DNA of 64,000 nucleotides from Cytospora piceicola (taxonomy: Eukaryota > Ascomycota > Sordariomycetes > Diaporthales > Cytosporaceae), in the NCBI GenBank assembly GCA_023375675.1, contig JALQBC010000001.1, forward strand, positions 186,001 through 250,000. Reading direction: 5' to 3'. This document shows positions 35,969 to 63,365 of the stretch, piece by piece (position 1 is the stretch's first letter; every line of letters starts with the position of its first letter). The notes below the pieces were generated by a model, which saw only the letters and a program-made list of their open reading frames with translations, ran no database searches and was not told the origin of the DNA. The translations under genes were made by a program, and so were the position numbers.

Positions 35969-38900
35969 TATACTAATGTCATTCCAGCGAATAGGTCACA
36001 TCGTCCCATCAACTCAGATGGCGTCCCAACATCCTCAACCTGTCCATTATGTAGCACAACAACGCGATCGTAATCTAAGACAGCCTCGAGTCTATGATTA
36101 ACCGCAATCACAGTTTTCCCACGCAGCCTTGTCTGGATGAGCTTTTGGATCCTGGACTCGGTCTCGTTATCGACCCTACTCCGCACATTAGCTTGTATTC
36201 TCACCGCGCTCTGTCGGCGTGACTCACGCCCGAGCTGGGTGCTTACCTGCTTGTGGCTTCATCAAGGAGAATGATACCACCAACGTGCCCATCAGCATTG
36301 AGCATGATCCGCGCAATATTGAAGAGCTGCTCCTCGCCCTCGGAGAAATCGCAGTCGTCCTTCGATGTGTCAATACCGCCCGCCTTCATGACCTTTTCCA
36401 GCATTCCACATTCCTGCAGCACGGCCATGAGGGCTTCTTCCGAGAAGACTTGGCTAGGGTCTAGCTCGAGTCGCAGGGTTTCTGAGCTTTCCAATTTGTC
36501 CTGTGAGACGATGAAGAAAAGCTTGCGGAGTGCCTCAAGTGACATATCACCTTGCTCTATTCCGTCGATGTAGATAGAGCCTGTTGGCATATTCACCATG
36601 CGAAGTAGCGCAAGATGGAGGGTAGACTTTCCGGAGCCCGTTTTACCGCATACTGCTACGCGCTCTCCGTGCTTAATATCGAGGCTAATCCCTCGTAAAC
36701 TCCAGGTGACACTCTCGGACTCGGGATCTTGGTAGGTTGCCCAAACGTTCTCGACCCGTACCGCACCACCACCATGTCCTTCTTGTCTCTCGGGAGGCGT
36801 ACTTTGTCGTGAGCGATACTTAACTGTCTCGACAGGCATCTCTTTCTCAAAGTGAGCAATGCGCGCGATAGCACCTAGAGAGGTCTCAAGGCCAGTCCAC
36901 GAGACGATAAAGTTCGTTAGGGTCTCGCCAAGTGTAGTAGCATTCTGGAAGGCGATACCGATAGCACTAGGGCTAACCTTATGGGATTGTTTTAGGGCAA
37001 CTGCTGCACCTAGGACTACGACAATGAGCCCTGCGACGACCAGATTGAGGACTACCTGTAGCCATCGCTGGACGGCAAAGAGGAGGTATATAGGTTCTTG
37101 GGACCTATCAACCTTTTCCAGAAACTTATCCGCGATAATCTGGGACCACCCATGCGCACGGATAGTTGAGAGGGCAGAGCCAGCGCTGGCCTCGGCTAGT
37201 TTTGTTTGTAGTGCGGCCTTCGCTTCGAGGTCGTGCATTCGAAGTTGCTTAGAAGTCCGAAGGTAGAAGTGCTGAACGACCCAGATAACGGCAAACAGAA
37301 CCGGGACAGCGCAGAGGGCATAGAGAGATGCCTTAGCTATCAGGACGATCTGGATAATAGCTGTTGCGAACTCAGATCCCGTATTAAAAAGATCTATAGG
37401 AAGCTGGAGGTCGACGAGCATCAGGTCCTGGTTGAAGCGATTTAATATACTTCCGGTGTCCACCTGGGCAATAACAGGAAATTGCGCTGTGACTACTGTC
37501 GTAACCAGCTGATCGTGAAGGTTTAAGCCTGAATTTGCGACGACATAAATTTGTTGATGCCTGTGACTTTGTTAGCGGTCATGTTTTGGAGCATGGCTGC
37601 CGTCCATCGGGAACTCCAAGTTTAGAACCGGACTTGCCATAGCCAAATACACAGAATCAACAATGCCGCAACTCCGAAAGCGACGTAGCCACCTAGCCAA
37701 TAACCATTGCGATTGTCGGCGGTGGAGCTCGCATCAGTCCACCACCCTATCCAGATGTCTTCAGACAACTTTGAGTAAGCCTATGGCAATATGTGTAGAG
37801 ATATCCGGGATCAGGACTGGGTACTAACCGGAAAATTTGTAAACGACAGCCCATACCACTATGCCACAGACGAATAAGGTCGAGTGTAGCATTCCGATAG
37901 ATCGGAGGTACTTCCCATAAACGACTCTGTCCCGGACTTGAAGTGAACCCTTCGTGTCTCCGCCTCGGGCATTGCCTGGGACTTGAGCCATCGCCGAGAT
38001 TTGTGTTGTGTTTTCGTTCGCCACCTCTCCTGTTGTCTCTACATCCTCGACTGGGCCTGGATCGGCAGAATTGATCATGAATTGTGTTTCTGTACAAGCC
38101 AAGTCTCGAGGGTCCCTGCAGTGAATATTGCCTGACGCATCGATTTCGAGGATCTGATCTGCTAATGCAGCGATTTGCCCTGTCTTCCATCAGTATTGCT
38201 GTGCATGCATGTGTGAGGAGACATGATCTGATAAACTCACTGTCATGCGTAGCGAAGATGATGGTTGCATCGTCTTTATCCGCATCCCGCTTGAAGAGGT
38301 TATTGGCAATATGCCATCGTGTTTTCCTATCCAAGGCACTGAAGACATCGTCCAGGACCAGAACATTCCGTCGTGAATAGAGTGACCTCGCAAGTGCCTA
38401 AGATACACTGTCAGCCAGGGGCCATGAGATCTATTGAGGGTAATTGAATAGGCTTGTGGTTATACGAACCAATCTCTGTCGCTGCCCACCACTGAGCATG
38501 ACGCCACCGCTGCCCACGGGACCATCCTTGAAGCTTTGATTTCGAACGATATCATCCAACAGACAATCCCTCACCAGTTTTTCTAAAAGCTGCTGGCAAT
38601 TCGAGTCGGGCCCATACTGCGTTAGGTTCTCCAACGCTGGGACATTTTCTAGCCACGGAGTCTGACTGCAGTAGGCGAAGGTAGTAGAAGGACCGACGAT
38701 CAGCTGCCCACTGACTTGCTGAGCCTCCCCAAGCAGTCCTTTGAGAAACAAGGATTTACCACACCCGGTGGGGCCAATAATAGCGACTCTTGATCCGCGT
38801 TTTACATCAACGTTGATGTATGACAGAATAGGGCTTTCTGCTTTCCATCCGAGCGACACATTTCTCAGCGATAGTACATTCTGTGAAGCAGTCCCTCGTA

Positions 38901-40993
38901 GCTGATGTTCCGGTGTGGATTTATCACCATAGCCGTTGGAGCTTTGCGTGCACAACATTCTGCTTTCCTTCCTCTCCGATAGCTCGAGAAAACCTTGAAT
39001 TCGCTGCAAACAGCCATACGCAGCACCAAGGCCTGGAACAGTCTGGAACAAATGTACCAAGGGGGAGGAGACCAAGGAGATGATCGTCAGCGAGGTGAAT
39101 ACTCCCGAGACGCTGAAATTGGGATTCGAGCCTGCTGTACCAATGTACACGGCCATCACCAATGGTGGTGACAGGGTCGCAGTGCAGTACGCTGGGGCGA
39201 CGTGTCCACGCATTAGCACTATTCAGTATTTTTCCACCTCGTTACCAGCATTGTGGAGGGAGCTCACATAGAAAGACCGCAGCGACCAGGAGTCGGCGGA
39301 AGGTAGCGGCGGCATCGATCTCTAGTACGCGGAGCTTAGAAATGCTTTGGTGTATCCTTGATTCCCCCGCCATCATCTTGATGGCCTTAAGCGAGGACAG
39401 CATCTTTCTGGTGGCTTTGAGCCGGCACTGCGTTGCGGCGAGCCACTTATGTTGACTGATGCCTGAGAATTTCATCAGACGAAGGGAAAGCATGCCGGCA
39501 GCTGACAAGATTGGTTCTTTTAGCACGTACGTACGACAAGCGATCTGGACTAAATATGTGCAAGATGGACTCACTGGCTGCCACACCAAGCATTATAAAG
39601 CTTGCGGGTCCAACATGTCTGTAAAGCAGCCAGGTGGCTAAACCTGCTTCCAGCGGGGTAGCCCAGACCTCATGAATCTGGGCAGATGCATTCATAATTC
39701 GTTGTATGTCGCTCATCATCAATGTCGTGGCTTTTGATTCAATCTGGTCATCTTCTGGGAGCTTAAGGAGCTTCTCAAATATGAGTATGCAGAGACCGCC
39801 GCGTATATGGACGCTACAACGATATGCTTGATGCCAGTACCAGCTTTGCGAGGCCTAAATGACAATTGAGCTCGACGTATTCAGCTATGGGACTACCGGT
39901 AACTCACAGCAATACCAGAATAGCACAAAAATGCCGCACATATGAGACCATATCCATGAGACTCGGGTACTGGGCCCTCTGATTCTAGATATTTCAGAGC
40001 CGCGTCAACCAGAAAGGGTTGTGTAAAGGTGAAGGCCGTCACCGCTAATCTGGCAATGATAGCGCCTATTAAATCATAGCCGATACTCTTCGAAATAAGT
40101 CGGATAAGACTGATACTGGGGGAGACACCATCTGGCAAATATTAGCTTCGGATATCAGACCAATTTGGGGTTATCCTCGGTACCATGCAATCCGTCTACT
40201 ACCGAATGAAAGCGTTGTCTCAGATGGCCAGAGAGTAACCTGCCATCGATGGGGACCAAGTCAGAGGGACCGAGTATCCGGCTGTATCCCCTCCTCATCA
40301 AGCCGTTCAGCCAATGAAAAACTGTCCGGCTGATAGGTCCAGCCAGTGTCTCTGAAGCCACCTTGCCTTGTATGAGGAGGACTCCTCGTTTGTTCCTAGC
40401 TTCGAGGTACACCCCGGTGAGTCGCATTGCCACACTGGCAGAAAAGGCCGATGCTAACGCCACGTCTCCTAGAAGCCATTGCGTGCGCGTTCGTACTGCC
40501 TCGAGTAGAGCAGTCGCAGCGAGGAAGGCGACGAGTAGAGAAGACGGCCTGTATGTTCTCAGGTGTTCATAATGAGACAGCGGGAGGACGAGTATAGCTG
40601 CAATCGTGGAAAGTACAGCACTTGGCACCGAAGCCGGTGTCTTGTTTCTGGTGTGTATTTCCAGGCCGAGCAAGACAAACTGTGAGGCTGCTAAAGCGCA
40701 AGCTGCGAGCTGCAGCGTAGCTACGTGGTTAGGAATTTCAAGCGCATTGGAATATCTCGATTGGGACTGGAACTTGCAATCTTGAGCACATGGAGAAGAC
40801 CAGAGCGGGCGACCACCCGTTTGGTCTTGCTGACGGAGATGAGACGAGCAATCGACAAAGTAAGAAACAGGCATGAGGGAAGGATGGCGAGCACCGAGTC
40901 TTCGAAGAGCATAGTAAAGTCGAACTCGCGGCGGCATGGGGATACCACAGGACCAAAGTCCATATCGGACGACAGGCCGCAGGCGTCTGGCAT
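35968..40993 (-). CDS. ABCC-type (MRP-like) multidrug/peptide ABC transporter
   Basis: Eleven minus-strand exons: 40993-40778, 40709-40184, 40131-39908, 39854-39575, 39501-39268, 39191-38470, 38397-38241, 38179-37829, 37758-37638, 37560-36247, 36175-35968. They sum to 4353 nt, 1450 residues, with every phase matching, so the gene appears intact. The N-terminus (MPDACGLSSDMDFGPVVSP) fits the fungal ABCC extension. NBD1 has Walker A GPTGCGKS (633-640), signature LSGGQ (726-730) and LVLDD with Asp where the catalytic Glu would be, as is common in ABCC. The second membrane domain contains DTGSILNRFNQD. NBD2 has Walker A GKTGSGKS (1249-1256), an unusual signature FSEGE (1349-1353) and Walker B ILLDEATS. 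Introns 37637-37561 and probably 40777-40710 begin GCAAGT. It may export the product of the neighbouring peptide cluster; this is inference. Confidence 0.93.
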
Positions 40994-42006: not shown

Positions 42007-43380
42007 ATGAATATACCATTGTTTCTTTCAGCCTGTCTTGTGGTTGCCTCCGCCATATGTGATCCTGTCCAGTATTGTCGATATGGCTTTCATGAGGACA
42101 AGGTCGACTTCTGCATCGCTATGACCACGCATTACAACGATTCAACTGCGTCACACGACTTCTACCTGGTTCTGCAGGTAACCCGCGCATCGTCTTCGGG
42201 ATGGACAGCCGTCGGAACTGGACCGGAGATGGCAGGATCCCTTATGTTCTTCGTATATGGCGACCCTGCATCTAGCCAGTTGCCAACCTTGAGCATCCGC
42301 ACGACCGATCAACACAATCCGCATTTGATCACCTCGTCAGATACAGGAGACACAGCTATCCGTGTACTTCATACATCTTGGTTGCCACCTAGCGCTGCCT
42401 CCTCCCCCGGGCTCCCTCGGTCTTCTCAACTTCCAGCACACACAGCACAGGTAGCTGCGATATGCTACTCGTGCACCCTATGGCCTGGCACTCCCATATC
42501 TGTTGCTGCCTCGAGCTATCCCTGGATCTGGGCATGGAACCCCGATCAAGATTTACACTCGTACAATGCGGACGCTCGGCTAGTTGGACATCATGGCACC
42601 GGAGGATATGGGCATTTTTACGTCAACATGCCGCAGTCTACCCAGCAAACGGCTGGCAGCGAGATTCCGGAGTTGCCAGTTATTCAACCAGGTATCGAAG
42701 CAGTCGGGGCTTCAGAGCGCCCAACAGATGGAGACCAGCCAGAGAGCTTGCGTGCAGAGTCTCGAACTGTTCGCCTCGCCTACATTCATGGCTCTCTCAT
42801 GGGTATAGCATTCTTGATCCTCTGTCCTTTGGGGACTATAGCAATAAGAGCCGGTCATTCTGAGGCATTCAAACACCACTGGATTCTGCAGACAACTGCG
42901 AGTTTGGTAGCAGTCAGCGGTGGAGCGCTCGGCTTGCTGGCAAGTGGGCGCAAGCCCCTTGCTACTCCTCATCAGAGCCTGGGTCTCCTGACTCTGACTC
43001 TTCTTGCATTCCAACCTTTGCTCGGCTGGGGACATCATATGATGTTTTTGCGGGTACGGCGGCGGACATGGTTGGCCCGTTTGCATATGGCGATTGGCTG
43101 GCTCATAAAACTGGGCAGCTGGTACAACTTATTGGATGGGGTGGCCCGAGCTGGTCACGGACAGACCACCATGTCTGTGGCTGTCACTGGTGTGGTAGTC
43201 GGATTTTTGGTCGTGACTATTGTCACATGGGTAGGAAGGAAACGATCTCAAAGTCTGCGGAGTCAAGGTCAGGTTCCACGGGGCAGTAGTGGTCAGTCAG
43301 ACGCTGGACAAGAGTACTCTCCCCTGAATATGGAAAACGACCGGGCCTCAGGCGATGAGAGCGAAGTTGAAAAGCCGTGA
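42007..43380 (+). CDS. DOMON / cytochrome b561 domain membrane protein
   Basis: Single-exon gene, 457 residues. Residues 1-18 form a signal peptide (MNIPLFLSACLVVASAIC). A DOMON domain of the cellobiose-dehydrogenase cytochrome type follows (about 20-205; GWTAVGTGPEMAGSLMFFVYGD, SSSYPWIWAWNPDQ-like text, GGYGHFYVNM). Next is a cytochrome b561/ferric-reductase-like domain (about 255-420) with five or six hydrophobic helices and histidines in YIHGSLMGIAF, KHHWILQ, TPHQSLGL, GWGHHMMF and RLHMAIGW that could ligate two hemes. The tail is polar. Such proteins move electrons across membranes. It lies 850 bp from the repeat-peptide gene and could supply electrons to cluster oxidases, but single genes of this type also occur outside clusters. 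Confidence 0.88.
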   Translation: MNIPLFLSACLVVASAICDPVQYCRYGFHEDKVDFCIAMTTHYNDSTASHDFYLVLQVTRASSSGWTAVGTGPEMAGSLMFFVYGDPASSQLPTLSIRTTDQHNPHLITSSDTGDTAIRVLHTSWLPPSAASSPGLPRSSQLPAHTAQVAAICYSCTLWPGTPISVAASSYPWIWAWNPDQDLHSYNADARLVGHHGTGGYGHFYVNMPQSTQQTAGSEIPELPVIQPGIEAVGASERPTDGDQPESLRAESRTVRLAYIHGSLMGIAFLILCPLGTIAIRAGHSEAFKHHWILQTTASLVAVSGGALGLLASGRKPLATPHQSLGLLTLTLLAFQPLLGWGHHMMFLRVRRRTWLARLHMAIGWLIKLGSWYNLLDGVARAGHGQTTMSVAVTGVVVGFLVVTIVTWVGRKRSQSLRSQGQVPRGSSGQSDAGQEYSPLNMENDRASGDESEVEKP

Positions 43381-44227: not shown

Positions 44228-45106
44228 TTACTGCTCAGCGGCCTTGGTCTCGGGCTCGCGCTTATCGAGCACGTCGCTAGCAGTGTGGAAATACTGCTTG
44301 GCAGCCTCGGGCTGGGCCTCGCGCTTATCGAGCACGTCGCTAGCAGTGTGGAAATACTGCTTGGCAGCCTCGGGCTGGGCCTCGCGCTTGTCGAGCACGT
44401 CGCCAGCAGTGTGGAAGTACTGCTTGGCAGCCTCGGGCTGGGGCTCGCGCTTGTCGAGCACGTCGCTAGCAGTGTGGAAGTACTGCTTGGCAGCCTCGGG
44501 CTGGGCCTCGCGCTTGTCGAGCACGTCGCCAGCAGTGTGGAAGTACTGCTTGGCAGCCTCGGGCTGGGGCTCGCGCTTGTCGAGGACGGTGCTATCGTCG
44601 TAGATGTACTGCTTGGTAGCCTCGAGATCACGTTTGTCGAGGACGTCGCCAGCAACGTGGAAGTACTGCTTAGCAGCTTCGGGATCACGCTTGTCGAGGA
44701 CGGTGCTATCGTCGTAGATGTACTGCTTGGCAGCCTCGAGATCACGTTTGTCGAGGACGTCGCCAGAAACGTGGAAGTACTGCTTCGCAGCCTCGGGATC
44801 ACGTTTGTCGAGGACGTCGCCAGAAACGTGGAAGTACTGCTTCGCAGCCTCGGGATCACGTTTATCGAGGACGTCGCCAGCAACATGGAAGTACTGCTTC
44901 GCAGCCTCGGGATCACGTTTATCAAGGACGTCGCCAGCAACGTGGAAGTACTGCTTAGCAGCCTCGGGATCACGTTTATCGAGGACGTCGCCAGCAACGT
45001 GGAAGTACTGCTTAGCAGCCTCTGGGGCGCGTCTTTCGGCCGTCGGAGCCGCCAAGGCGTACTGTGCCAGGATGGCCACAACGGTCATGGAGATTTGGGG
45101 CTTCAT
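44228..45106 (-). CDS. Secreted Kex2-processed repeat precursor, candidate dikaritin-type RiPP precursor
   Basis: Single open frame of 292 residues. Residues 1-19 are a signal peptide (MKPQISMTVVAILAQYALA), followed by APTAERR and 13 tandem repeats, then a 9-residue tail. Repeats 1-8 are 19 residues ([A/D][P/L]EAAKQY-x6-VLDKR, one with EATKQY) and repeats 9-13 are 21 residues (E[P/A]QPEAAKQY-x6-VLDKR). Every repeat ends in Lys-Arg, a Kex2 site. EAAKQY and VLDKR are nearly constant while the six residues after Tyr vary: FHVAGD (four), FHVSGD (two), IYDDST (two), FHTAGD (two), FHTASD (three). This is the architecture of ustiloxin/phomopsin/asperipin precursors. A UstYa-family gene lies divergently 1.2 kb away and an MFS exporter beyond it. 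Not an alpha-pheromone precursor: no Trp/Cys/GQP core. The peptide product and its modification are inferred. Confidence 0.87.
   Translation of the reverse strand: MKPQISMTVVAILAQYALAAPTAERRAPEAAKQYFHVAGDVLDKRDPEAAKQYFHVAGDVLDKRDPEAAKQYFHVAGDVLDKRDPEAAKQYFHVSGDVLDKRDPEAAKQYFHVSGDVLDKRDLEAAKQYIYDDSTVLDKRDPEAAKQYFHVAGDVLDKRDLEATKQYIYDDSTVLDKREPQPEAAKQYFHTAGDVLDKREAQPEAAKQYFHTASDVLDKREPQPEAAKQYFHTAGDVLDKREAQPEAAKQYFHTASDVLDKREAQPEAAKQYFHTASDVLDKREPETKAAEQ
44255..45028. repeat. 13-copy in-frame tandem repeat (57- and 63-bp units)
   Basis: Eight 57-bp units (right part, N-terminal in the protein) and five 63-bp units (left part) encode the Lys-Arg-bounded peptides. Within each class the DNA copies are nearly identical, including synonymous sites, so the array has been homogenised recently by unequal exchange or conversion. 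The 63-bp class carries an extra Gln-Pro dipeptide. Confidence 0.92.
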
Positions 45107-45472
45107 TGTGGGTAGATCGATTGTAACGGTTGACGAGTTTCCGGATGATGAAGTCGGAAGAGTTCAGACTGCTTGAATCTCGAAGAATTGATATTTGAGA
45201 GGCTGGAATAGCTCAAGTCGCAAGATGGCTTGACAAAGTCTGCTTGATGACGAACCAGCATGACAAAATGAAAGCCATCGCGGGCCGCCCTGCTTACTAT
45301 ATAGCTGATCCCAGGTCTGCGTTGATCGTGATGCCCTCAACGAGCTAAGCGAGGTTGACAGTCTGGCTTGAGCTTGAGGGGCTTGGGTAAGAATCGTGAT
45401 ATCTCCTAGGTATCCACCTGTCAGCTCACTCAGTCATCTCACACGATCATCTCACAAGATCATCTCACTCTA

Positions 45473-46072
45473 TGGTGCGCGGCAGTGCAATCTCTGCGGA
45501 AAGTCAAAAATCGTCAATAGACATACACCTAAGACCGAATAATAATAACCCAAATCGGGAGAATATCTCGATTTACTAGCTTATAACTAGTAAATCAAAT
45601 AAATAAAAAATACTGTAAAATACTAAATATTATATTTACTATACTTATAAATTTACTTTTTAGTTTTACGTTTCTATTCTTTTATAAAAGAGATTATAAA
45701 GAATTTTCTCGTTTTCCGGTTTTCGTGTGGTCTTATCTTATCGCTGATAAGTACCCGTCCCGATAAGAAAATTCCGTACCTTTTCGATTTTATTTCCTAG
45801 TATTTCCGGATTTTCTAAATATATACCTACGCCTTATTAAACTCTATTAAGTACTTTATTTATATTAAATAAATATAATATTATAATAAATATATAATAA
45901 ATATATTTTATATATTTAATATTTAAATTATAGTTTTTTAATTTTAGTTTATTATAATATCAATTAGGTTAAGCGTAAAAGCAGGTATTTATAAATCTGG
46001 TTATTTAGGAGAAATGTGGTGTAGCTATAGTGGAAAAGTGACTTTCCGCAGAGATTGCACTGCCGCGCACCA
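45473..46072. mobile_element. 600-bp TIR element (Tc1/mariner-like MITE), RIP-mutated inside
   Basis: Left (45473-45506) and right (46039-46072) ends are perfect 34-bp inverted repeats starting TGGTGCGCGGCAGTGC. They are flanked by the dinucleotide TA on both sides (45471-45472 and 46073-46074), the target duplication of Tc1/mariner-type elements. The roughly 530-bp interior is TA-rich with few CpA sites and no open frame, so it is a non-autonomous or heavily RIP-mutated copy. The GC-rich ends are unmutated and identical, whereas the interior is strongly mutated. Inserted inside a TCTCACTCGGT-type minisatellite. Confidence 0.88.
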
Positions 46073-46215
46073 TACACTCGGTTATCTCACTCGGTTATCT
46101 CACTCGGTTATCTCACCCGGTCATCTCACTCGGTTATCTCACTCGGTCATCTCACTCGTTCATCTCACTCGGTTATCTCAATCGATCAGCCCAGTTTGTC
46201 ATCTCACTCGTTCAT
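46073..46215. repeat. Minisatellite of about 13 bp units (ATCTCACTCGGTT)
   Basis: About nine copies of a [T/C]CATCTCACTCGGT / TTATCTCACTCGGT unit run from the right end of the TIR element. Related CATCTCAC units continue left of the element at 45425-45470, which shows the element split one array. Confidence 0.85.
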
Positions 46216-46341
46216 CTTATTCAATACATTTATACAGGACTCGGCATCTCTTCTATAATCTTAGAAAGATGCTCTTACCCTTGGGACGATGTGCTCATAC
46301 CACAGCTTTGACTCGACACTGCACAAATTTTGGAAATCATA

Positions 46342-47352
46342 ATGTTCGCCTTTACGAAATTGAGGAGGCTCGAACCACCGGTCCTTCCCCATGAAGAAGA
46401 GCAATTTATACCCAAAGGGCCTAGAGAGAAGGCCGGGCCGGTTTCTTCTGGGCGCTTCAGCCTTCGGTTCATTTGGTTCGTGACGATCCTCAATATCGCT
46501 TTCTTGATCCTTTCTGTCGCGAGCGCGGTGTCGTCCCATCGGTATAGGATGGCTTTAAAGCACAACCGTGACAACGCTGTGGTACGCATGGTTGATTGGT
46601 ATTGTACGAGTCACTTCCTCCTCTCTAGAGGTCCCCAAAGCTGGACCCATCACACTAACCATCCGGCAGCTCCTCTTCATGACGAAATACAGATGGATTT
46701 TATCGACCAGACCATCAATGGCAGCTTACTGGACATGGACAAGTCCATCTTCCGGGCACCGCCTTCGCCAGAGGTCGATGCAGCTTGGGAGCGTGTCGGT
46801 AGCCTCTGGCCCCACGTCATCAGTACCGACGACGTGATCCGACTGGGTAAAGATCCCTCGAAGACTGTAAGATGGCCCCTGGACTGGGGCTTTGGTTCTG
46901 AAGCTCACGTCGCCGAGCTGGACGTGTTACACACGATACACTGCCTCAACGCCATCCGTCGTGACGTCCATTGGCGGCACTATTACATCGACGAGTACCC
47001 AGACGGCGTGTTCCCGGAACTGCACCGTATTCATACAGACCATTGCATGTATATTGTGCTTCAGAATCTGATGTGCAGTGCTACCGGCGATATCGTTAGC
47101 AATGCTTGGGTCGAAGGACAGCTGCACCCATTTCCCGACTTTAGTGTCAACAAGAAATGCCGCAATTTCGACGCAATACTGGAATGGCACGAGCGTACTG
47201 TGGTAATAAACAAGACAAAATATGAAGACATGCGGATGCCTCAAGGCCATGAGCCATATCACATGACACAGGAGTTCCATCAGGCGTTTGGGACCGGACT
47301 GGATAATCATGGAGGTCATGCACATGACCACCGAGAAGCAGGAGCGCAGTAA
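46342..47352 (+). CDS. UstYa-family (DUF3328) oxidative cyclase candidate
   Basis: Exons 46342-46603 and 46670-47352 give 314 residues. The 66-nt intron (gtacga...CTAAC...cggcag) is itself in frame and free of stops, so the region also reads as one 336-codon frame. Splicing yields DWYSPLHDEI, matching the family's YSPA..DEI segment, and is preferred. Residues 43-64 (FIWFVTILNIAFLILSVASAVS) are one transmembrane helix near the N-terminus. The family-defining motifs HxxHC are both present: HTIHC (175-179) and HTDHC (209-213). PSPEVDAAWE is also typical. UstYa proteins catalyse oxidative macrocyclisation of Tyr-containing core peptides in ustiloxin, asperipin and related fungal RiPPs. Located divergently from the repeat precursor. 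Other UstYa paralogues serve other pathways, so the substrate is inferred from neighbourhood. Confidence 0.92.
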   Translation: MFAFTKLRRLEPPVLPHEEEQFIPKGPREKAGPVSSGRFSLRFIWFVTILNIAFLILSVASAVSSHRYRMALKHNRDNAVVRMVDWYCTSHFLLSRGPQSWTHHTNHPAAPLHDEIQMDFIDQTINGSLLDMDKSIFRAPPSPEVDAAWERVGSLWPHVISTDDVIRLGKDPSKTVRWPLDWGFGSEAHVAELDVLHTIHCLNAIRRDVHWRHYYIDEYPDGVFPELHRIHTDHCMYIVLQNLMCSATGDIVSNAWVEGQLHPFPDFSVNKKCRNFDAILEWHERTVVINKTKYEDMRMPQGHEPYHMTQEFHQAFGTGLDNHGGHAHDHREAGAQ

Positions 47353-48216
47353 GCTGTGGTGGGAGAACTGAATTTGTCCTCATATATCGTATGTGATAGA
47401 TGAGACGGAAATAGATATTGGATACTGCGAATTTGTACATAACGTTAAACGTTTTTTAAACGTAGGCACTGTGATTTTCTCCATGGCTTGGTGTGGTCCT
47501 GGTTCCTCTCGTTTTGACGTTTTACGCAGCAGTGCACCATGCAGTGCTACACCAGATCTTACACAGAGGCCAAACAAACAATTCCGGATTGATGAAAGAA
47601 CCCGTAGATCGCAAATGCTAGAGACTGCGTATGCTAGACGATCTTGGTACGACCATCTAGATGAGAGCTTAGCTTTGCAGTATAAATCATCAACAGGCAC
47701 TTCATCCTCACTACGCACATTTGAAGTTCGGCGATGGAAAAGACAGCTAGCTTCCTCAGTATGTACGTTACCGTCTTATATGGATAGAATGTGCTCACTC
47801 AAGACAGACTTCTTCAAGAACAGAGGGGGTTCAAGATCTTAGTAAAGCCCATGACTTGATTAGTTGTGATCCGTTACACAGACAGATGGTTTGGTGTGCT
47901 TCTTTCGAAATGCAGACAAGATAAATAGCAGGACACACTATCTGTGTTCTGGTTCTATCGTGAATATACATAGAAGATTGCCTACCTTCAAGCTATCTAC
48001 CTTGCCGACAATGGTTTCGCCTGAAGCTCTGGATGTTGAAGGATCCAACGTGCTTGTTGGGCAGCAACGGGTGTTTATTACTAGCCGATCCTTGGTACCC
48101 CAGGGTAGACAGACAGGGTATGCCGGGGTTGAACCGGGCCCTAACTAGGTTCCGATGGGTTTTTGATTGCCCAAACCTTCCTCGCACGGTCCGACCATGT
48201 AGGGGCCTGACGTGTG
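47353..48216. other. Intergenic region between UstYa and MFS genes
   Basis: Two overlapping open frames, 47393-47842 (plus, 149 codons) and 47380-47718 (minus, 112 codons), have no recognised domain and neither is preferred. The convergent orientation of the flanking genes suggests this is mainly 3' flank, but an unrecognised cluster gene or its remnant is possible. Confidence 0.4.
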
Positions 48217-49968
48217 CTAACCATCGTGAAGAATCGCTCTCTGCTCTTCTTCATCTCTGGCATCCTCCTCGGGGATTGTCGAGTCTGTTGATGCCCGTAC
48301 GAGAAAAAGCATCATAGCAACTGAGCCGGCCAGAGCAAAAGACAACATGAATGGCATGCCAGCCCAAGTTCCGCCAAGTCGCATACTCCAACCAAATAGC
48401 CCTGAAACAAGCGGGCCAGCAAGAAGGGAGCCCAGTGTCTCCATGACCGCCATCGCTGTGTAGAGTGTCCCAAGCATGTTCGCCTCAACAAATGAGCTAA
48501 GAAGCGAGCGAGCAAAAGACCCAAATCCACTTCCAAGTGTATATAGTGTAAGCGCTGCTACTTGTCAATGGAAATGTACTCGAACATAAGCGCAGCTTCA
48601 GTCAGGCTTGGACGATACTGACCGAGAACCACAAACCCTATCGAGGGGGCTGCAGCAAGAAGGGCGAAGCTGAGCGTTACCAAAACGATACTGAAACGCG
48701 ACAGCTGCAGATTTTTCCTCCTCGGTGAAACACCGAGTTTCTTATCAACGAAGACATCAAGAGCAGGCAGAATTACTGCAATAATAACAAGTGTTGCGGA
48801 CGCTTTATATGATAAGAGAAAGTTTGCCTATTGATGGTCAACGCGTAAAGTTCTGATCAGTTACACTCAGACGATGTATTAGCTTACTGACCTCGGCAAT
48901 GGGAATGGAGTATCGCGTCGACGCATACTGCAACAGGATACTCAGCGACTGACGTGCGAAGTCCACCACAAGGAACGATAAAACAAGAATTAAAACTATG
49001 CGAGAGCGGCAGATGAATTTCAGCGTCTGCATCACGTAACGCAAAGTACCGCTGATGGAATCCTCGAGACAGTCATCGTCTGGCTGATCCGACAACTCTT
49101 CCTTAAGATGAATCGTTTCGGGAATAGTCCCAGCCAGGATGGTTGTCGTGCCGGTGCAAATGAGTGAAACGAGTAATGGCGGCCACACTCCCATGTTTTT
49201 CATCATGACGGAACCCAACGCCGGCCCAAGCAGCTCAGCAACTATAAAAGAAGCTTGGTTAAGGAAGAACACCCTCGAACTGTGTGTTTATCTCATCAAG
49301 TAAGCTACTTTTCAGTACCATTTTCAATGGTCAAGTGGTATTTGCCAAAGGTCCTCACCGGTTAGACTCAGGAGTCGCGTCAGTAACAATCATCGCGGCG
49401 ACTGCGCTGGTGACAGTGCCTCCTCCACCAATAACAAGAAAGCAGGAGGAAATCCAAGTGAGCTTCAGGGGAAGGTCGGCCCAGCCTGCGACATCGATGG
49501 TCAGAATCTGGAAAATTGACCGGACAGGTGGTGAAGTGGGTACTCACATATTAGGATCACCCACGCTTGCCCCAAGATTTGTCCTAGCACACTGAAGAAG
49601 AGGACTTGCTTCCGTCCATGTCTGTCTGCCAAGCCTCCATAGTAAAGAGCCAAGACCAGGCCGGGTATTCCATCAAAGAACGCCTGCCAACCGAAGATAG
49701 TGGCTACTTGACTTTGCACCGCAGGGACTTTGCACCACTCCTCAGCTGGCCCGTCCCCGTCGACCTGGAACTGGGAATGAAGATAGCGACGACACACGAT
49801 GTCTTCGAAAAGCCGTGTTGTGGGCGCAATAGACATGCAGAAACCAAGACCATCGACAGCGAGCATGAAAGTAATCACCCAGATCGGGTGCCAGTATGTT
49901 CGTGGAAGCGGCTTCGGGTTCTGACTGCTGTCGTCGGGCAGTTGTGATTGAACATCTGATGTAGACAT
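48217..49968 (-). CDS. MFS drug/metabolite exporter
   Basis: Five minus-strand exons: 49968-49548, 49485-49359, 49279-48892, 48827-48623 and 48557-48217, total 1482 nt, 493 residues with all phases consistent. Introns are 62-79 nt with GTGAGT, GTGAGG, GTCAGT-type donors. The N-terminus is MSTSDVQSQLPDD followed by the first helix WVITFMLAVDGLGFCM. The MFS signature after TM2 reads GGLADRHGRKQVLF, and a second-half helix reads TLGSGFGSFARSLLSSFVEANMLGTLYTAMAVMETLG. About 12 hydrophobic segments are present, followed by an acidic tail (PEEDARDEEEQ). It most resembles fungal multidrug or secondary-metabolite exporters. It is 0.9 kb from the UstYa gene, and such exporters are common in RiPP clusters. 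Intact. Confidence 0.9.
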
Positions 49969-50380
49969 ATTGGCAAGACTGAATTGCTTGAGGAAGGGAG
50001 ATGGAAACAAAGTGGAAGTGTAAAACAGCCTACACATGCAAGAAGAGGTATCTAGTCCTTTCGGAATACATAATCTTTGGCAGCTCCGGAGGGAGAACCG
50101 TATTCGTAGCAATGGCTGAGCACAGTTTCCGGCAGGAAATGCAACATAAGCTGATCTTGCATGGTGATATGTACAGGGCAGCGTCACATCACTCAGTATG
50201 TATGATAATTTCCAAGGATATGTCACCGAGGTGGATACAGCAGTGACCCACCCCACCACGACTGTGGTATGAGGCCGTTTTTTAATCACCCTGTCAGGTT
50301 CATGTAGTCCTTGCGCTTAACAGCATCTCTAAGCAGGGCACAGACCAGGTACATGACAGGGATATTTCAAATACCCTGGT
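49969..50380. other. Upstream region of the MFS gene and border to the AT-rich block
   Basis: Mid-GC sequence up to about 50.38 kb, after which composition falls abruptly to RIP-type AT-rich DNA. No gene recognised. Confidence 0.5.
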
Positions 50381-52639
50381 AGCTAAATGTTATACGTAAT
50401 ATATACTCGATTAATATATTAATGTATTCTCTCGTACCCTGCTTACTCGGGTACGCTAATTTCTATATTAAATATATCCCGAAGTTAATTATATAACTTA
50501 CTTATTCGTATAAATTAAGGTATTTCTGTAAAGACCCTTACTACTATCTAATATACCTTTTAAAAGAAGCTATTTATAAATAGGTTTTTTATATAAGCCT
50601 TTTTCTTAAAATATTAACCTTTATAAAGAGGTAAAGGTAAGTCAGGCCTGTTATAGCTATATAGCTAATTATATTTAGTAATATCGCTTATAAAACGTGT
50701 TTTTTTTTTCTTTTTATTTACTATTATATAGTTATTACTATTATTACTACTACTATAGTAATAGTAGTAATAATAATAAGTAAGGTTTTAATAGTTTTTT
50801 TTATATATTTATTTTTAATCGTTTTAATAATACCTTTTTATTTTAAAAAAAAGATAGTCGAAATAGCTATCGAAATATATAAAGTTAAGTTTAGCTTTTT
50901 TAAAAGGCTAGCTACCTTTATTATATATTTTTTTATATCTTTATTTCTTATACTACTTTTAATTAATATATAGCTTAATAATACTATCGTCTGCTTAAAT
51001 AATAACGATAATAATAAAGATAAAAATAAAGAAAAAGACGAAAATAAAGGTAAAAGTAAAAGTAAAGCCGGTATAAAGCTTATTATAAATACTTTTTCTA
51101 TAGTTTCTTTTATTAAGTTATTTACTAATACTTTTATTTTAAAGAGATAAAAAGGTTAAAAGCTAGCTATAGCTTTTAACTACTTTTTATACTTTATATA
51201 TAATATAATCTGCTAGAATATATATTATACCTTACTAGCGTTACGTTTATTAGTAAATATATTAAAGGTTTATAAACCTTTATTATAACTAAGCTAAAGG
51301 TTATATAAAAGCGTATATATAATATATACAGGTTAGTTATATATATCTTTCTATACCGGTTAATATAAAGCTTAAAGTTTATACTTTTAATCTGTTTTTA
51401 TAAAAGAATTTAAAAAAGCGTTTAAATTAATAAAAGTAAAGTAAAAGAGGTATATTATTATATATATACCTCTTTTACTAATATTATAGCCGTTAAAGCT
51501 ATATAAAAGTAAAAGGTACTTTTAAACTTTTACTTTTAATTAGTAATCTAGTTATAAAATAAAGGCTACCGATTTTAAATATAGTAGTTTATTTAAAAAT
51601 AATATAATATACTTTAAACGTTTTTATATATAAGCTAGTATATTTTATAACTTTTTTATTTTACCTTTATAATATATACTTTTATATATTTAAGTTAAAT
51701 TAAGAAATCTTTTAGCTTATTAATTATATTATCTTTTAAGTGTTTTACTTTTTATTTTTAAATTTTATTCTTAATATTAACTAGTTTAAGTTAAGTAATA
51801 AACGTTTAATAATTAATAATAAAGAGTATTTTAATTAAACTATTAATAACTATATTTAAAGTGTTAATATAATTAATATATAAGTGTTTTTATTAAACTT
51901 TTTACTATAATTAATAATTATATATATTTATATAATAAAGTTTTATATTAAGTTAAGTAATCTTTTTATTTATTAACTTAATTATTTATATATTATTATA
52001 TTATAGTTAAATAGTTTATTAATTAAACTAAACTTTTAATTTTTATATAAGCAGATATTAAAAAAGGCTTTTTTTAATATTTAAGTAAAAAAAGATAACT
52101 TAGCCTTTATAATAAAAGTAGTTATAGTATTTTACTTATTTACTTTCTATTTAATATATTTATTAAATAGTTTTATTATATATACTTATAAACTTTAATA
52201 GTTTAAGTTATTATTAGTAAAAAATAAATTACTTTATACTTTAAAAAAGTTTATTCTTTTTAATTTAAAAATAAAAGCTAATATTTAAGTAAAATATCTT
52301 AAAACTTAATCGGCTACTTTATAATATTATAGCTTAAATATTATAAAAGCTATATTTAATATTATAATTACTATTATATATAAAATTAATCCGACTTTAT
52401 ATTAATATAAATAAGCTAATATAATAAATACTTAGTTTAAATATAATAATAGTATTATTAAAGCTATTAGTATTTTATATAAAGCTTATTATTATATTTA
52501 TATAAAAGATAATATTTTATTTATATAGTTTATTTAAAAAAGTTAAATCTTTTATATAACTTAATTTTAAAGTATTATAATATTTAAAAACTATTAAAAG
52601 TTATTTCTACTTATACTTTTATATTATAACTTTAGCTAT

Positions 52640-52960
52640 TTAATAACTTTTTTAACTACTTTCTTATCTTTATTTTAATATATAATAATAATATTATCTA
52701 TATAAAAAAAGATTAATACGTTATTTTATATAAAATAATAAAGCTTATAAAAACTTAAAGTAAAACCTATCTTTTTAAATATATAAGTAAGTTCTTTTTA
52801 CTATAATAATAAAGATTCTTTAAGTTTATAAAAAGCTTTTTTTAATAAAAAAACCTACTTTAACTTTCGATATTCTTATATAATATATATATAAATCTCT
52901 TTATTTAAATAATACGTTAATAAAAGTATTAATTATATTATATTAAATAAGTTCGAAATC
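52640..52960 (-). pseudogene. Ty1/copia reverse transcriptase relic
   Basis: Translating the minus strand of this stretch gives, despite stops, the ordered blocks of a copia polymerase. There is a KA.Y.LKES segment (from about 52831), then KELTYIFKKIGFT, then the catalytic box as FYIDNIII (about 52680-52705) where the second Asp codon reads AAT, as a G-to-A RIP change would give. The spacing between blocks is that of copia elements. The element's upstream domains would lie at higher coordinates; no LTRs were identified. Confidence 0.72.
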
Positions 52961-54647
52961 TAACTAAGCTATAATTACTATTATTATTTTAAATAACGTT
53001 TTAATAAAAGTAGTTATATAAGCTTTTTTTATATTACTTTTTTATTATTAATCCTTTTAAATAACTAGTTAAGCTTTATATTTAATAAAAAACCTATATT
53101 TATTATATTTATAATTATATACTTATATATAATTTAATAAGGATTTTTTAACTACTATATTTATTACGTTTTCTTTTTATAATTATATTTATTTATAGCT
53201 TTAAAAATAGTCTTTCTTTACTTATTTAAATAAGTTTTTATAAATATATTTATAACGTTTATAAAACGTTTTTAAAGTTAAAAGTAGCTTTTATTTATAT
53301 ATCTTTTATTCTTTTTATAAACAGTATAATATTATACTTAAGTTTACGCTTTTTATTTTTTAAGATAACCTTTTTATTTCTTTTTATATTATACCTTTTA
53401 TAATAGTTTTCCTGTTTTACTATCTTAACTAGTTTTATAATTATTATATATTAAACGTTAAAATCTATAAATATACTTTATTAATTTAAAGTATTATTTT
53501 ATTTTTTAAATACTCTTTATCTATTCATATTATAAAAGCTATAAAGATAAAGCTATATAATAAAAAAAGAAATACTTTTAAAGTTAATAAGTATATATAT
53601 ACTTTATTTAAAAAGTAATTAGTTTCTTTAATATACTTTTTTATTATTTTATTTTTACTTTTATATATTTTTACTTTTATATTAACTTTAATATAAACGG
53701 TATTACTTTCGAAATCTTTTATTATTTCCTTTTTAAGTATTTTTTATCGCCTTTAAATATACTTTAAAAGCCGGTTATATAAATATATAACTACTTTAAT
53801 TACTTCTTTTTAAAAGAAATTCAGGAGTTTTATATAAACTATTATATATTTCGCCTTTATAGTAATTATACGTTTTAAACGCTTAATAATACTGTTTTAT
53901 ACTTATATTTATAATACTAAAGGCTTAATTTTAACGTTATTATCGTTTTTTAACTAGTCTTTTAGTTATTATAGTTTAATAATTTCTTTATCGTACTCGA
54001 AAGTTTTAAATATTACTTTTATATTCTTTATAGTTTTTATAAAGGATTTTAATAAACGTTTTAATATAGTTTAATCTCGGTTTCGAAAATAATAGTTATA
54101 TATTACCTTTATTTTATAGTAAGTAAAGAAAGCTATAGCTTTATATCTTTTAAGGTTTTTTATAATATCGGTAAAGTTTAAAGTAAAACGTTATATTTCT
54201 TATAGTTCTTTTTAAGAAACTTAAAACACTTATCTTCTTTATAATATATCTGTTATATTTGTATATATAAGGCTTTTACCTTATTTAAGTACCTTAATAT
54301 AAGTTAATAACTTTATTAAATCTTTTTAGCTCCGGATATTTAAGCTATAAGTATTAGAATTCATTTAAAACCTACCGTTTTATCTTTTATAGCGTTATAT
54401 TAAATAAGGCTGCTTTATTTTTAAATATAAATTTAGTTATAATATTAAAAAGCTTTTCTAATATATTTTATTTATATTTTATAAAAGAAGTATATAAAAA
54501 GAAGTTATTATAGTTCTGTTTAATAGTATTTTAGCTTTTTTATTATTTTAATAGTATTCTTTCTTTTAAAACTAGTTAAGTAATGTTAAAATATATATAA
54601 ATCCTTTATAAAAGGCTATATTTTTAACTTTAAATACTTTTAAACTA

Positions 54648-54652
54648 TTATC
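54648..54652. repeat. Target-site duplication TTATC, left
   Basis: TTATC directly precedes the left LTR and is repeated directly after the right LTR at 63366-63370. Confidence 0.85.
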
Positions 54653-55109
54653 TGTTATAACTTAAAGTTAAGGTACTAAGGGGTTATACGGTTAAGAAGT
54701 TATATATAACCTAAGTAAAGCTAGTATACCGGAACGAATAGAATCTCTATAAAAGAGTTCTGTCTAATTAAGGTAACCTATTAAGGTTAAGGTTATAATA
54801 CTTACAGTACTTAACCTGTAAGTATAATAAGTAAAAGGAGCTTATAGTACTCTTACTATAAGTACCTCGAGCTTATAATTAAAGAGCTAAATATATAAAG
54901 ATAGAAAGGTACTACCTTTTAAATAGTTTATAGTTAGTTTTTAGTTATTAATTTAAGTATTATTCTTATAATAGGTTTTATTACTTTTTAATTATTATAA
55001 AGATAAAGCTCGGAATATTATTTATCTTTTATATATATATTTTATTAATAATATAAACTCTACCGGTTATAATAAGTACTTTTATAAAGGTTATATTATA
55101 ATTATTATA
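54653..55109 (+). repeat. Left LTR of the gypsy element
   Basis: Begins TGTTATAACTT and ends ATTATTATA, aligning along its length with 62909-63365 with only scattered transition differences. The right copy starts TATTATAACTT, so its TG terminus has been changed by a G-to-A mutation. Confidence 0.92.
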
Positions 55110-56139
55110 TTTTAATAACCTTTATTTAATATAGTTTTAACGTATACCGTTAAGTAATATTCCGACACTTTATTATAATACCCGATATCCCGATAACCGA
55201 TAGTAAAAAGCTTATAGAAGCCTTCGCTTTAATTAGCGACCTTTAAAGTAAGTATAACGAACTAATAACTAATAAAGAAAGTAAAAAGAAAGAAGAAAAG
55301 AAGGTTTTATATAAGGCTATTAAACTTAAAAAGCTTAAAGCTTTCGATAGTACTAAAAGAACTTTATAAGGATTTTTTACTATAACTAAGGCTTATTTTC
55401 GATACTATAAGAATAACTTTATTATAGAAAGTAATAAAATCCTTTTTATAGCTATTTTATTAGAAAGAAACGTATTTACTTAGTTCGAACTTACTATATA
55501 TAACTATTTAGATAATAACTATAACTTACTTAAAGAAAATAGTACTATCGATATCTTCCGGGACTATATTTCGTTTAAAAAAATATTTAAAAAAGCTTTC
55601 GGTAAACTTAAAAAAGAACAATAAACGAAACGGGACTTAACTAAATATAAGTAACAGACCTTAATATTTAACTACTTAATAGACTTTCGGTAGATTTTTA
55701 TAAAGTTAGAATAGTCCGACGAACTTTTAATAATACTGTTTTATAATAGACTAAAGGATAACGTTAAAGATAAATTAGTTAAAGAAAACAGGCTAAACGA
55801 CTTTACAGAATATATAAAAAAAGCAGTTTAGATCGATAACAGATTATATAAACGATAACTAGAAAAATAGAAGCTTAAGCTAACTAATAAGTCTTATTAA
55901 AGACTTTATACTTATAATACCGGAAAGAAGTTTTAACGTAAAGGAAATAATTATAATAATATTATATATAAATAATATATAAGACTTATAAAACTCGACG
56001 TAACCGAACGTAAAGATAAGTTAAAGCTCGAATACTTTAACTATAGTAAAAAAGGATATTTCGTATAAAACTATTAAAGTAAGTTAAAGAAAATATAAAA
56101 ACCTATACCTAAAAAATAATAACGTAACGATAATATAAA

Positions 56140-56880
56140 ATACAAAACTCTTATAATAGGAAAATAAAGGCTACTATATAATATACAGAGTTGTAAAATA
56201 TAAGTAAATACAAAAATACAAAAATACAAATATAAAATACAAAAATACAAATACAGAGGGTCGGAAATAAATATAAATACAAATACGTATTTGTATTTGT
56301 ATTTATTTTGTATTTTTGTATTTCTAATACAAAAATACAAGTAATATAAAAGTAAATATATAATAATATTATTATTAATATAACTTATATTAGTACTATT
56401 AACCTGTAAATATAAGTATTTAATATATAAAATATTATAAAAACCTTAAAACTATTTTGTATTTTTATATTTCTAATACAGAAACATAAAATAAATATAA
56501 ATATAAATACGTATTTTATATTTTTATATTTGTATTTTATATTTCTAATATAAAAATATAAAAATACAAAAATATATACTTATATAAATATAAATATAAA
56601 ATTAAATAAAATACATATTAATACACTTTAAGAACTTTTATAATAAGAACTATAATACTTAATAATATAATAGTTATTTATACCTTTATATAGTTCTTTA
56701 TTATTTTATATAGTGTATTTGTATTTCTGTATTAGAAATACAAAAATACAAAATATAAAGGTTTAGAAATAAATACAAATACAAATACAGAGGTCTAGAA
56801 ATACAAATACAAAATACATGTATTTTTATATTTTTAAAAATACAAATATAAAATACAAAAATACAGTTATAACTCTGATA
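56140..56880. repeat. TACAAA-unit array with palindromes inside the gypsy element
   Basis: Dense irregular runs of TACAAA/TTTGTA units in both orientations, including a perfect 22-bp palindrome at 56276-56297 centred on ACGT. CpA is abundant here but almost absent in the surrounding element. Confidence 0.8.
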
Positions 56881-59800
56881 ATATAATAATTTAGAATAAC
56901 GACTCCGACTACTTTAACGTTAACTATTTAGTAAAAGTAGCAGGAAAAAACTTAAAAAATAAATAAAACTTTTAAAAAACCTTTATAAAATATAAAAAAG
57001 AAATCTTATTCGAACTATACCGAAACGATATTATTACCTTTCCTGATATTTAAAAGACTAAAATAAAAATAAGCTTTAGCTATATAACTACCTTTTAAAA
57101 AAAAGAACCCTTTAAATAAACGTAAACTTTAAAAACCGTAGAAAAAATACTATAAAAGAATAAGAAACGAATCGTTAAGTTTATTAAAAAAGGTAAGGTA
57201 ATAATCGATATTATTAACTAAATAGTTTTAGAAAAAGAATTATAAAAAACTAAGCTAAGTAGCGATATAAGCTTTAAAAATATATAGGAACGTAAGAATA
57301 ATTTTAATAAATAGATCGACGATAATACTATAAATAGCCTTATAAAAAAAAAGTATAGTAAATCCTCGAAATAGTAAAAGAAAACCCGGTATTACTTTAA
57401 TATATATTAAATAACCTATACTATTTCTTAAGTAGTATAATAAACTTCGCCTTTTATAAAAATAACGTCTAGTTCGCTATATATAACGTATTAATAAAGA
57501 AAACCGGAAAAGCTACTTATAATAAAACAATATAATAAAGCGATTAGTCTTACTTATCTTTAAGATATATATAATATATAATATAAATCGTTTAAATTTC
57601 GTATATCGACAATAAATATAAAGTATATTATTCTTATAAAGTATAAAACGATTTCTTCTTATAATAATACGCGAATATACTAATCTTATAAGTTTACCGA
57701 CTTAATAATATCGCTTTATACTATTACCGAATAAATAAAGGAAACTTAAAGGATTACGCTATTTTCGTACTTAACGAAAAACATTACCTTTTAAACTATA
57801 TTAAAATAGAATCTATTATCGGTAACTATTTATCGGATATATATTACGTCTATTCTTAATATAAATATATTAAATAGTATAAAATAATACGTATTTTAAA
57901 TAAACGAAAATCGGAAAGAAATCGGCTTTAAGCCTTAAAATAGCTATTAAAAAACGTTTAAGAAAAGATATTTTAGAAAGTAAGAAAAGATATTTTAGAA
58001 AGAAGATTTAAAAGAAAAAACGATACCTTTTAAAGAAATTTATAAAGTAACGCCTTTTAAAAAGAAATAAGACTAAGCTAGAAAATTAGTATAGTAGGTA
58101 GTAAAATAAGTAAAAAACAAGTTAAACTATTAAAAACAGAACTATCTAATAGTAAAGAACTAAGACGATTCTTTAATGTAATAAGCGTTTATAACTATAA
58201 CTACTTATAATTAGAAATATAAATCAGTAAAATTAAACTATACGTATTATTAGATAGTAACGTTTAAAAGAACTTTATTTTTTTAAAAATAGTTAATAAG
58301 TATCGACTAACTTATTATAGAAAGAAAGAACTATATTAACTAAAAACGATCGAAAAAACTAATATTACTTATAGTAACAGATAAATTAATAATAAAACTA
58401 ATTATTTTCTTATTATTATCTAATAATACTATAAGACTTTTAGCTTTAATATTATAAACCTTTTAAACTATAACGTAGTACTAAGTATTATATAATTTAA
58501 AAAGTATAACTTATATATTAATTAAATTACTAGCTAAGTTAATTAAACGAACCGTACCTTAATTAAAAGGATAATTAATAATATCGAGAAAAAGAGTTTA
58601 GTCTTTAAGAACAGCTTAAGAAAATAACGTTTAAACGTACTTAATAATACCTTTAAAAGAGTTTAAAGAACTACTTAAGTTTAAGAAACTATAATAAAGA
58701 AAGATACTTTAAAAAAGAATTATAATATTAAGAAAGTATAAACAAAACTCTTAAGTAAATCGAATATTATATAACTATACTAAATAACGCTATAGCGATA
58801 TAAAGATATAATTAAAAGAGCTAACGTAACTAAAAGAAAACAATAGATAGCGGCTATAATTTAAATAATTTAAAATATTAAAAAATATAAGTATAAGGTA
58901 TAAATATAGTAAAAAGCTAAACTATTAACGATAAAGATAATTATAATAATACGAAAAAAGACTACTTTACGTTAAAAGTAACGGTACGAATATAAAGAAA
59001 TAGTTAAATAAATATAAGAGTTACTTAAATAATTTATAAGCTATTTATAAAAAACTAAGAAAGTAAAGAAAAAACTTAAGAACTATATTTTAAAGGAATA
59101 TAAAAAGTATATTAAACTATTTTTAAAAGACTTCGATATTAAACTACTTAAATATACTTAATAAAATTATAAAATACCTTTAAAAGAAAGAATATAGCTA
59201 AAGTTCTAATAGATTTATAAATTAAACGAAAATTAATTAAAAGTACTTTAAAAGTATTTAAAGAAAAACTTAGCGAAAGGTTATATAAAACGATTAATAT
59301 CGCCGGTAAAATACTTAATCCTGTTTATTTTAAAAGAAAACAGAAAATTAAAACTATACGTTAACTACCGACAGCTTAACGAAATTACTATTAAAAATAA
59401 ATACCTTTTACCTTTAATTAAAAAACTTAAAAATAAACTATATAAAGTAAAAATCTTTATAGCTTTAAACTTAAAAGGAGCTTATAACTTAATTAAAATA
59501 AAAGAAAAAAAAGAATAGAAAATAGCGTTTAAGATATATTATAGATACTATAAGTATTTAGTAATACTATTTAAACTTATTAACGTTTTAGTTACCTTTT
59601 AAGCTATAATTAATTATATACTATAAGAATATTTAAATATTACTATCGTTATATACTTCGATAATATCTTTATTTATTTTAAAAATAAAAGTAAATATAA
59701 AGAGTATATTTACTAAGTATTAAAAGTACTATAAGATATAAAACTACTAATAAAACTAAAAAAAGGTTTTTTTTATATTAAAAAAGTAGATTTTTTTAAA

Positions 59801-62800: not shown

Positions 62801-62908
62801 TCGACGTTATTAGGTATAATAAATTAAAAAAGTATAAATATATATAGCTAATAAAGAAAAATAACTTATAAGTTTTCGAAAATAAAAACCGATAAAGAAA
62901 AAGGATAA

Positions 62909-63365
62909 TATTATAACTTAAGGTTAAGGTATTAAAAAGTTATATAATTAAAAAGTTATATATAACTTAAGTAAAGTTAGTATACTATAACAAACAGAAT
63001 CTCTATAAAGGAGTTCCGTTTAATTAAAGTAACTTACTAAAGTTAAGGTTATAATATTTATAGTACTTAATCTGTAAGTATAGTAAGTAAAAAGAGCTTA
63101 TAATACTCTTACTATAAATACCCCGAGCCTATAATTAAAGAGCTAGATATATAAGAATAAAAGGGCACCGCCTTTTAAATAGTTTATAGCTAGTCTTTAA
63201 TTATTAATCTAAGTATTATTCTTATAATAAGTTTTATTACCTTTTAATTATCGTAAAGATAAAGCTCGGAATATTATTTATCTCTTATATATACATTCTA
63301 CTAATAATATAAACCTTACCGGTTATAATAAGTACCTTTATAAAGGTTATACTATAATTATTATA
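62909..63365 (+). repeat. Right LTR of the gypsy element
   Basis: Same length and register as the left LTR, followed by TTATC (63366-63370). Its start reads TA instead of TG. Confidence 0.92.

Follow-up and report, generated by a model that had tools for sequence, protein, structure and literature searches.

The locus described here raises the question of what a fungus makes from a secreted-looking repeat precursor whose gene stands beside that of a UstYa-family oxidase: a crosslinked peptide, a linear signal, or nothing that involves the oxidase at all. It lies in a 64,000-nucleotide stretch of Cytospora piceicola DNA (the window, C1:186001-250000 in a 43.6-Mb genome of 99 contigs) and combines a Kex2-processed repeat precursor, a UstYa gene and a predicted major facilitator superfamily (MFS) exporter. 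The best reading is a locus for a dikaritin-type ribosomally synthesized and post-translationally modified peptide (RiPP), which we consider likely. A preliminary description of this DNA had arrived at the same interpretation, which is supported here and strengthened by the linkage of UstYa and MFS genes in five other species and by two more loci in the genome that join a precursor, a UstYa gene and an MFS gene. The observation behind it was also recovered, that is, the precursor, a UstYa gene with both HxxHC motifs, an open MFS gene, a DOMON/b561-like gene and pieces of an ABCC transporter.

The precursor is encoded by a single open reading frame (ORF) of 292 aa on the reverse strand (44228-45106), with a hydrophobic, signal-like N terminus (judged by eye), an RR pair and then 13 repeats that each close with KR, in agreement with the 13 Lys-Arg-bounded repeats of a secreted-looking precursor reported before. 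Tabulating the repeats gives two core types, KQYFH in 11 of them and KQYIY (KQYIYDDST) in the other 2, and Tyr is present in 13/13. At the DNA level the gene contains a 57-bp tandem array (Tandem Repeats Finder score of 749) and is single-copy in the genome, where its one other match is the gene itself read on the opposite strand. For the 11 KQYFH repeats, the ratio of nonsynonymous to synonymous differences (pN/pS) is 0.17 in frame versus 1.14 when shifted by one base, indicating that the precursor is a real gene under purifying selection; the ratio for the second frame shift was not obtained, and the repeats are duplicates, so that the pairs behind both values are non-independent.

Directly adjoining the precursor and transcribed divergently from it is a UstYa-family (DUF3328) oxidase gene (46342-47352, forward strand), whose product matches PF11807 over residues 43-285 (E = 2.3e-43), carries both of the HxxHC motifs noted earlier, as HTIHC and HTDHC, and is 314 aa long once spliced. 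In the Umemura survey, a UstYa gene lies no more than 15 genes away from 1758 of 7878 repeat precursors (22%), most often as the immediate neighbour, and Tyr is found in 65.6% of the repeats of UstYa-linked precursors versus 38.2% for precursors without UstYa (PMC7329392). Together with the linkage and recurrence described below, these base rates indicate that the pairing seen here is meaningful and also that it is well known as a kind. The gene contains an in-frame 66-nt intron (46604-46669, forward strand; GTACGA...ACTAAC...CAG), recognized from the alignment of orthologues, which is free of stops and is read through in a single-ORF model of 336 aa. The spliced form has WYSPLHD, the pattern of most aligned orthologues, and the intron-derived insertion is missing from most of them. 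An AlphaFold2 model of the unspliced 336-aa frame (mean predicted local distance difference test score of 79.4) places the HxxHC motifs on helices 194-209 and 226-245. Orthologues in named species show 45-65% identity, and in a tree that took in six paralogues from the same genome, with its other paralogues left out, the window's UstYa falls inside a supported 17-row clade, the six paralogues standing outside on long branches in unsure positions. Given this identity and a well-populated orthologous clade, the earlier characterization of the protein as divergent does not hold.

The third gene, on the reverse strand (48217-49968), encodes the predicted MFS exporter of 493 aa (MFS_1, E = 5e-24); it is open as modelled, with four introns placed by sequence-based intron scoring without transcripts, which bears out the intact MFS gene first described. 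Its orthologues are 49-58% identical. UstYa and MFS orthologues lie on a common contig for at least 5 of the 18 MFS matches with ≥49% identity and ≥79% coverage, namely in Xylariales sp. PMI_506, Colletotrichum sublineola, C. gloeosporioides, Cordyceps javanica and Ophiocordyceps sinensis. A common contig was judged from the species name together with equal contig size in the UstYa and MFS match tables and, when long, does not by itself imply adjacency; the Cordyceps javanica pair is two tags apart (V2A60_000067, V2A60_000069), and the Ophiocordyceps sinensis pair carries the tags G6O67_006634 and G6O67_006643. The MFS search gave 32 matches among 7998 candidates, those with most words in common, and these matches represent 90%-identity clusters, which makes the co-occurrence counts lower bounds; for the other 13 of the 18 matches, the UstYa table contained no contig of equal size, perhaps as a result of this clustering.

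The recurrence of the UstYa/MFS pair across species would also fit a conserved pair that serves another metabolite, with the repeat precursor as a chance neighbour. UstYa homologues do act in non-RiPP clusters, such as that of cyclochlorotine (PMC12048977), and no precursor homologue was found among the 7996 candidates scored. We nevertheless hold this explanation to be improbable, since two more loci in the genome join a precursor, a UstYa gene and a paralogous MFS gene, and since fast variation is expected of RiPP cores; the precursor search, moreover, was limited to 7996 candidates.

These two loci were found among the UstYa neighbourhoods of the genome, of which there are at least 24 (merged from 36 PF11807 matches), 13 others than the window's being examined at 10 kb each (130 kb). 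In 2 of the 13 we observe a further repeat precursor, with unrelated cores, alongside a gene paralogous to the window's MFS. One of them (C27; L045, G000:C27:447600-457599, positions 4600-9806) has a precursor with a signal peptide, an intron and 6 full repeats [ASF]DSEDAVQKGYKR, a UstYa gene (PF11807, E = 1.5e-47) and an MFS gene. The other (C2; L053/L054, G000:C2:114800-130799) has 6 repeats GEEDEAWVQAASKR, which carry Trp and no Tyr, with MFS and ABCC genes side by side; its UstYa match is broken by stops (introns or decay), and a second UstYa-like gene is visible by eye, without a Pfam match. Given a published mean of 5.25 repeat precursors per ascomycete strain (PMC7329392), the number expected in 130 kb is 0.016, versus the 2 observed (P about 1e-4). 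Likewise, for 2 of the 7 MFS paralogues a UstYa gene is found at a distance of no more than 6 kb (P about 0.001; this value, like those for ABCC proximity below, assumes randomly scattered genes, an assumption that clusters near chromosome ends may break). A two-copy repeat at L046 was rejected as a precursor, being too short and without a signal peptide, and no repeat precursor was present in the 10 kb of either L042 (G000:C54:20000-29999) or L044 (G000:C33:42000-51999), which have several UstYa matches within a few kilobases. No further precursor was seen in the remaining 10 of the 24 neighbourhoods, examined at ≤1.5 kb per side or at the match alone, a range at which the C27 precursor also escaped. 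With their unrelated cores, the three parallel precursor/UstYa/MFS loci form a natural set for the question of what UstYa proteins recognize.

The spacers between the cores, overlooked in the preliminary description, change the products to be predicted for the window. Kex2 cutting would give units of 19 or 21 residues, and in 11 of the 13 repeats (mutual duplicates, not 11 independent observations) the N-terminal spacer consists of in-phase X-Ala/X-Pro pairs (AP.EA, DP.EA, EP.QP.EA, EA.QP.EA), the signature of Ste13. The extra QP in some spacers leaves the phase unchanged, and stripping the pairs would leave one 13-residue frame, AKQYFH[VT][AS][GS]DVLD, in all 11. The two Y-IYDDST repeats begin with DL, having CTC where most have CCC, and because of this start they would escape trimming. 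DPPIV_N, the family to which Ste13 belongs, has one match in the genome, within an open frame of 972 aa that would fit a Ste13-type enzyme, and Pichia peptidomics has shown that such dipeptides are removed from a fungal repeat precursor (PMC9769878).

This layout makes it necessary to consider that the precursor, processed as alpha-pheromones are (Kex2, Kex1, Ste13), yields secreted peptides that stay linear and serve as signals or effectors, with the neighbouring UstYa inactive on them. The in-phase dipeptides in 11 of 13 repeats stand against 0/6 and 0/6 at C27 and C2, and the signature is absent from the precursors of ustiloxin, phomopsin and epichloecyclin, while precursors that bear it have been suggested to be hormones (PMC6339444). 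We consider such an outcome unlikely, given that a divergently transcribed UstYa gene adjoins the precursor, that every repeat has a Tyr and that annotated pheromone precursors, with three exceptions, have no UstYa nearby (PMC7329392). Alpha-pheromone precursors also differ from the window's in having a pheromone-like core. In filamentous ascomycetes this core contains Trp/Cys, if not universally; Trp and Cys are both absent from the window's precursor, MF_alpha is absent from its Pfam matches up to an E value of 1, and the one pheromone pattern tried, W-C-x3-G-x-P-C-W, was not found in the genome. What the ascomycete precursors have in common with it is the X-A/X-P dipeptides after Kex2 sites (PMC6339444), and a UstYa gene stands 2 genes from a Rutstroemia Ccg-4 homologue (PMC7329392).

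For the dikaritin-type locus, we tentatively suggest that the pathway may have taken over alpha-pheromone trimming: Ste13 would set a uniform N terminus for the UstYa substrate and a single Pro-to-Leu change would withhold two cores, such that one precursor might give rise to 13-mers, after trimming, and to 17-mers that keep their spacers, the two differing in their crosslinks. If true, this would be an extant link between linear peptides of pheromone type and cyclised toxins, of the sort that Umemura's hypothesis predicts. The proteases that remove the flanks of the ustiloxin core were still unknown according to a 2019 review (PMC6514808), and a UstYa-linked precursor with clean Ste13 spacers provides a directly testable candidate protease for the trimming of dikaritin flanks. 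In the literature searched, titles and abstract openings gave no published description of a UstYa-linked precursor with the Ste13 signature, Umemura's Rutstroemia example coming close.

With respect to novelty, a search of 5.8 billion proteins, with scoring of the 7996 candidates that had most words in common with the query, returned no precursor homologue at E ≤ 0.01, and relatives with few common words may have been lost. Scoring was not the obstacle, since computer-mutated repeat units still scored well in a phmmer control. In this the precursor is not alone, as 2560 of 7878 known repeat precursors likewise stand by themselves (PMC7329392). The label of undescribed is correct, within the reach of this search, for the core sequence, but not for the kind of locus, which has been described in large numbers (PMC7329392). 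What is new here is a precursor without a found homologue that carries Ste13-type spacers, in a locus of a well-known kind. Two sets of matches were set aside: a degenerate AAKQYFH DNA pattern hit 82 stretches of the prokaryote collection, with 1 match each, all in records with prokaryotic titles and none repeated, which is attributed to chance, and the Pfam matches of the precursor (SNAP at 3e-9 and 7 weaker ones) are regarded as repeat or composition artefacts.

As to its class, the locus fits the current definition of dikaritins, having a two-HxxHC UstYa, a repeat precursor and a transporter, where UstYa/DUF3328 with two HxxHC motifs defines the class (Montalban-Lopez 2021, as cited in PMC12048977). 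It falls outside the older five-gene definition (Ding et al., as cited in PMC12048977), which includes a tyrosinase, multiple UstYa, a methyltransferase and a peptidase, because contig C1 has no tyrosinase and one UstYa gene. The absence of a tyrosinase, claimed earlier, agrees with the genome's 5 tyrosinase matches, all of which are on contigs other than C1, and C1 holds one PF11807 match at E ≤ 0.001. A Pfam search of ORFs from about 32.5 to 50 kb, in which small exons may be missed, gave no methyltransferase and no peptidase.

The ustiloxin and phomopsin clusters resemble the window in their signal peptide, Kex2 repeats with Tyr and UstYa-family oxidases, and they include an MFS exporter. 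They differ in that their first step needs a tyrosinase, in that ustiloxin needs two UstYa proteins (PMC6514808) and in that their precursors are without the Ste13 signature (PMC6339444). Like the window, the asperipin-2a cluster of Aspergillus flavus (aprA, aprY, aprT, aprR) has a precursor, one UstYa-type oxidase and a transporter, with no tyrosinase or peptidase listed; compared by description, it differs in its core, FYYTGY, in its reductase aprR and in that the source, as far as it is known to us, mentions no Ste13 signature (PMC6514808). To call the pathway minimal, like asperipin, was thus apt for the precursor, the single UstYa-type oxidase and the transporter, but passed over the reductase aprR, which the asperipin cluster also has (PMC6514808). 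Among surveyed precursors, Umemura's KEP type G-6 (#13) has a UstYa gene within 15 genes in 46 of 49 members and Tyr- and Asp-rich repeats, and its genera Colletotrichum, Cordyceps, Beauveria, Ophiocordyceps and Penicillium overlap with those of the relatives of the window's UstYa (PMC7329392). Motif 3 of Le Marquer, DADAATXYV[A/V]D, has acidic X-Ala dipeptides followed by A-[TK]-x-Y, as here, but the core after Tyr differs (PMC6339444); as a DNA pattern with 1 mismatch, it was not found in the window's genome. The genera in common and the layout D-x-[ED]-A-A-[TK]-x-Y, as judged from the published descriptions, suggest that the precursor may belong to type G-6 or motif 3.

In the proposed pathway, the precursor would enter the secretory pathway and be cut by Kex2 after each KR, the sites being what is seen. 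Kex1 would then take off KR, and a Ste13-type dipeptidyl aminopeptidase would strip the X-Pro/X-Ala pairs to leave 13-mers, AKQYFH[VT][AS][GS]DVLD, while the DL-starting repeats would stay as 17-mers. The membrane-bound UstYa would crosslink the core via Tyr; judging from the Tyr-x-Ile of ustiloxin and phomopsin, the bond would most likely form within Y-x-H or Y-x-Y. Finally, the MFS protein, perhaps together with the ABCC pump, would export the product or protect the producer.

Several points weigh against a dikaritin-type product. The reading draws on sequence data. Enzymes of the UstYa family are also at work in pathways other than those of RiPPs, and the genome contains no fewer than 24 UstYa neighbourhoods. 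Outside this locus, the Ste13 signature typically marks linear, pheromone-like peptides (PMC6339444). The linkage in other species covers the UstYa and MFS genes only, and at the second-closest MFS paralogue (C13) there is no repeat precursor and no UstYa match, which speaks against a fixed link between this MFS and a precursor. Lastly, a miniature inverted-repeat transposable element (MITE) in the shared promoter might impair expression.

This promoter is the 1.2-kb intergenic stretch between the divergent precursor and UstYa genes. The MITE (45471-46074) is AT-rich, 604 bp long and bounded by TA, with perfect 36-bp terminal inverted repeats; the genome has 16 copies of ≥590 bp, the window's included, at 77-100% identity. 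It is inserted inside a minisatellite and splits a 13-bp repeat array, CACTCGGTYATCT (46075-46217), whose degenerate copies continue past it at 45420-45470. All 8 genome-wide matches to a 20-bp array pattern (≤2 mismatches) are in the precursor/UstYa promoter, and the array might be a regulator binding array. The insertion, together with a GC content that drops to 12-31% in the part of the window beyond 50 kb, could point to a once-functional cluster that was silenced or is decaying at the edge of an AT-rich block. Such decay is very improbable in our estimate, as the modelled genes for the precursor, UstYa and MFS all have open frames and pN/pS among the repeats is low.

On the other side of the precursor, the DOMON/b561 and ABCC genes were found as previously placed. 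The former (42007-43380, forward strand) encodes a 457-aa membrane protein with a CDH-cyt type DOMON domain (PF16010, E = 8e-9) and a b561-like part recognized by eye. Its membership in the cluster is uncertain; its other genome matches are weak (28-39% identity; C19, C46, C14), with none on C27 or C2. The ABCC-type transporter (36243-40993, reverse strand) is present as TMD0, membrane and ATPase pieces with no clean full gene model, and is a possible cluster member. On C27, its nearest paralogue (52%) and the UstYa gene are 24 kb apart, and on C2 a further ABCC gene adjoins the MFS gene. As a constant member it was rejected, with 4 of the 21 other ABCC matches ≤25 kb from a UstYa gene (P about 0.002) and 1 of 21 ≤10 kb (P = 0.20). 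Beyond the ABCC gene, at about 32.6-33.4 kb, lies a short-chain dehydrogenase; no other reductase-like gene was seen in the vicinity, and 10 more ORFs in and near the cluster have no Pfam match. From about 50.3 kb to the window end, where GC content is in the low range given above, the longest stop-to-stop frame is ≤123 aa; this gene-poor, AT-rich part (50300-64000) may be the kind of block that repeat-induced point mutation would leave.

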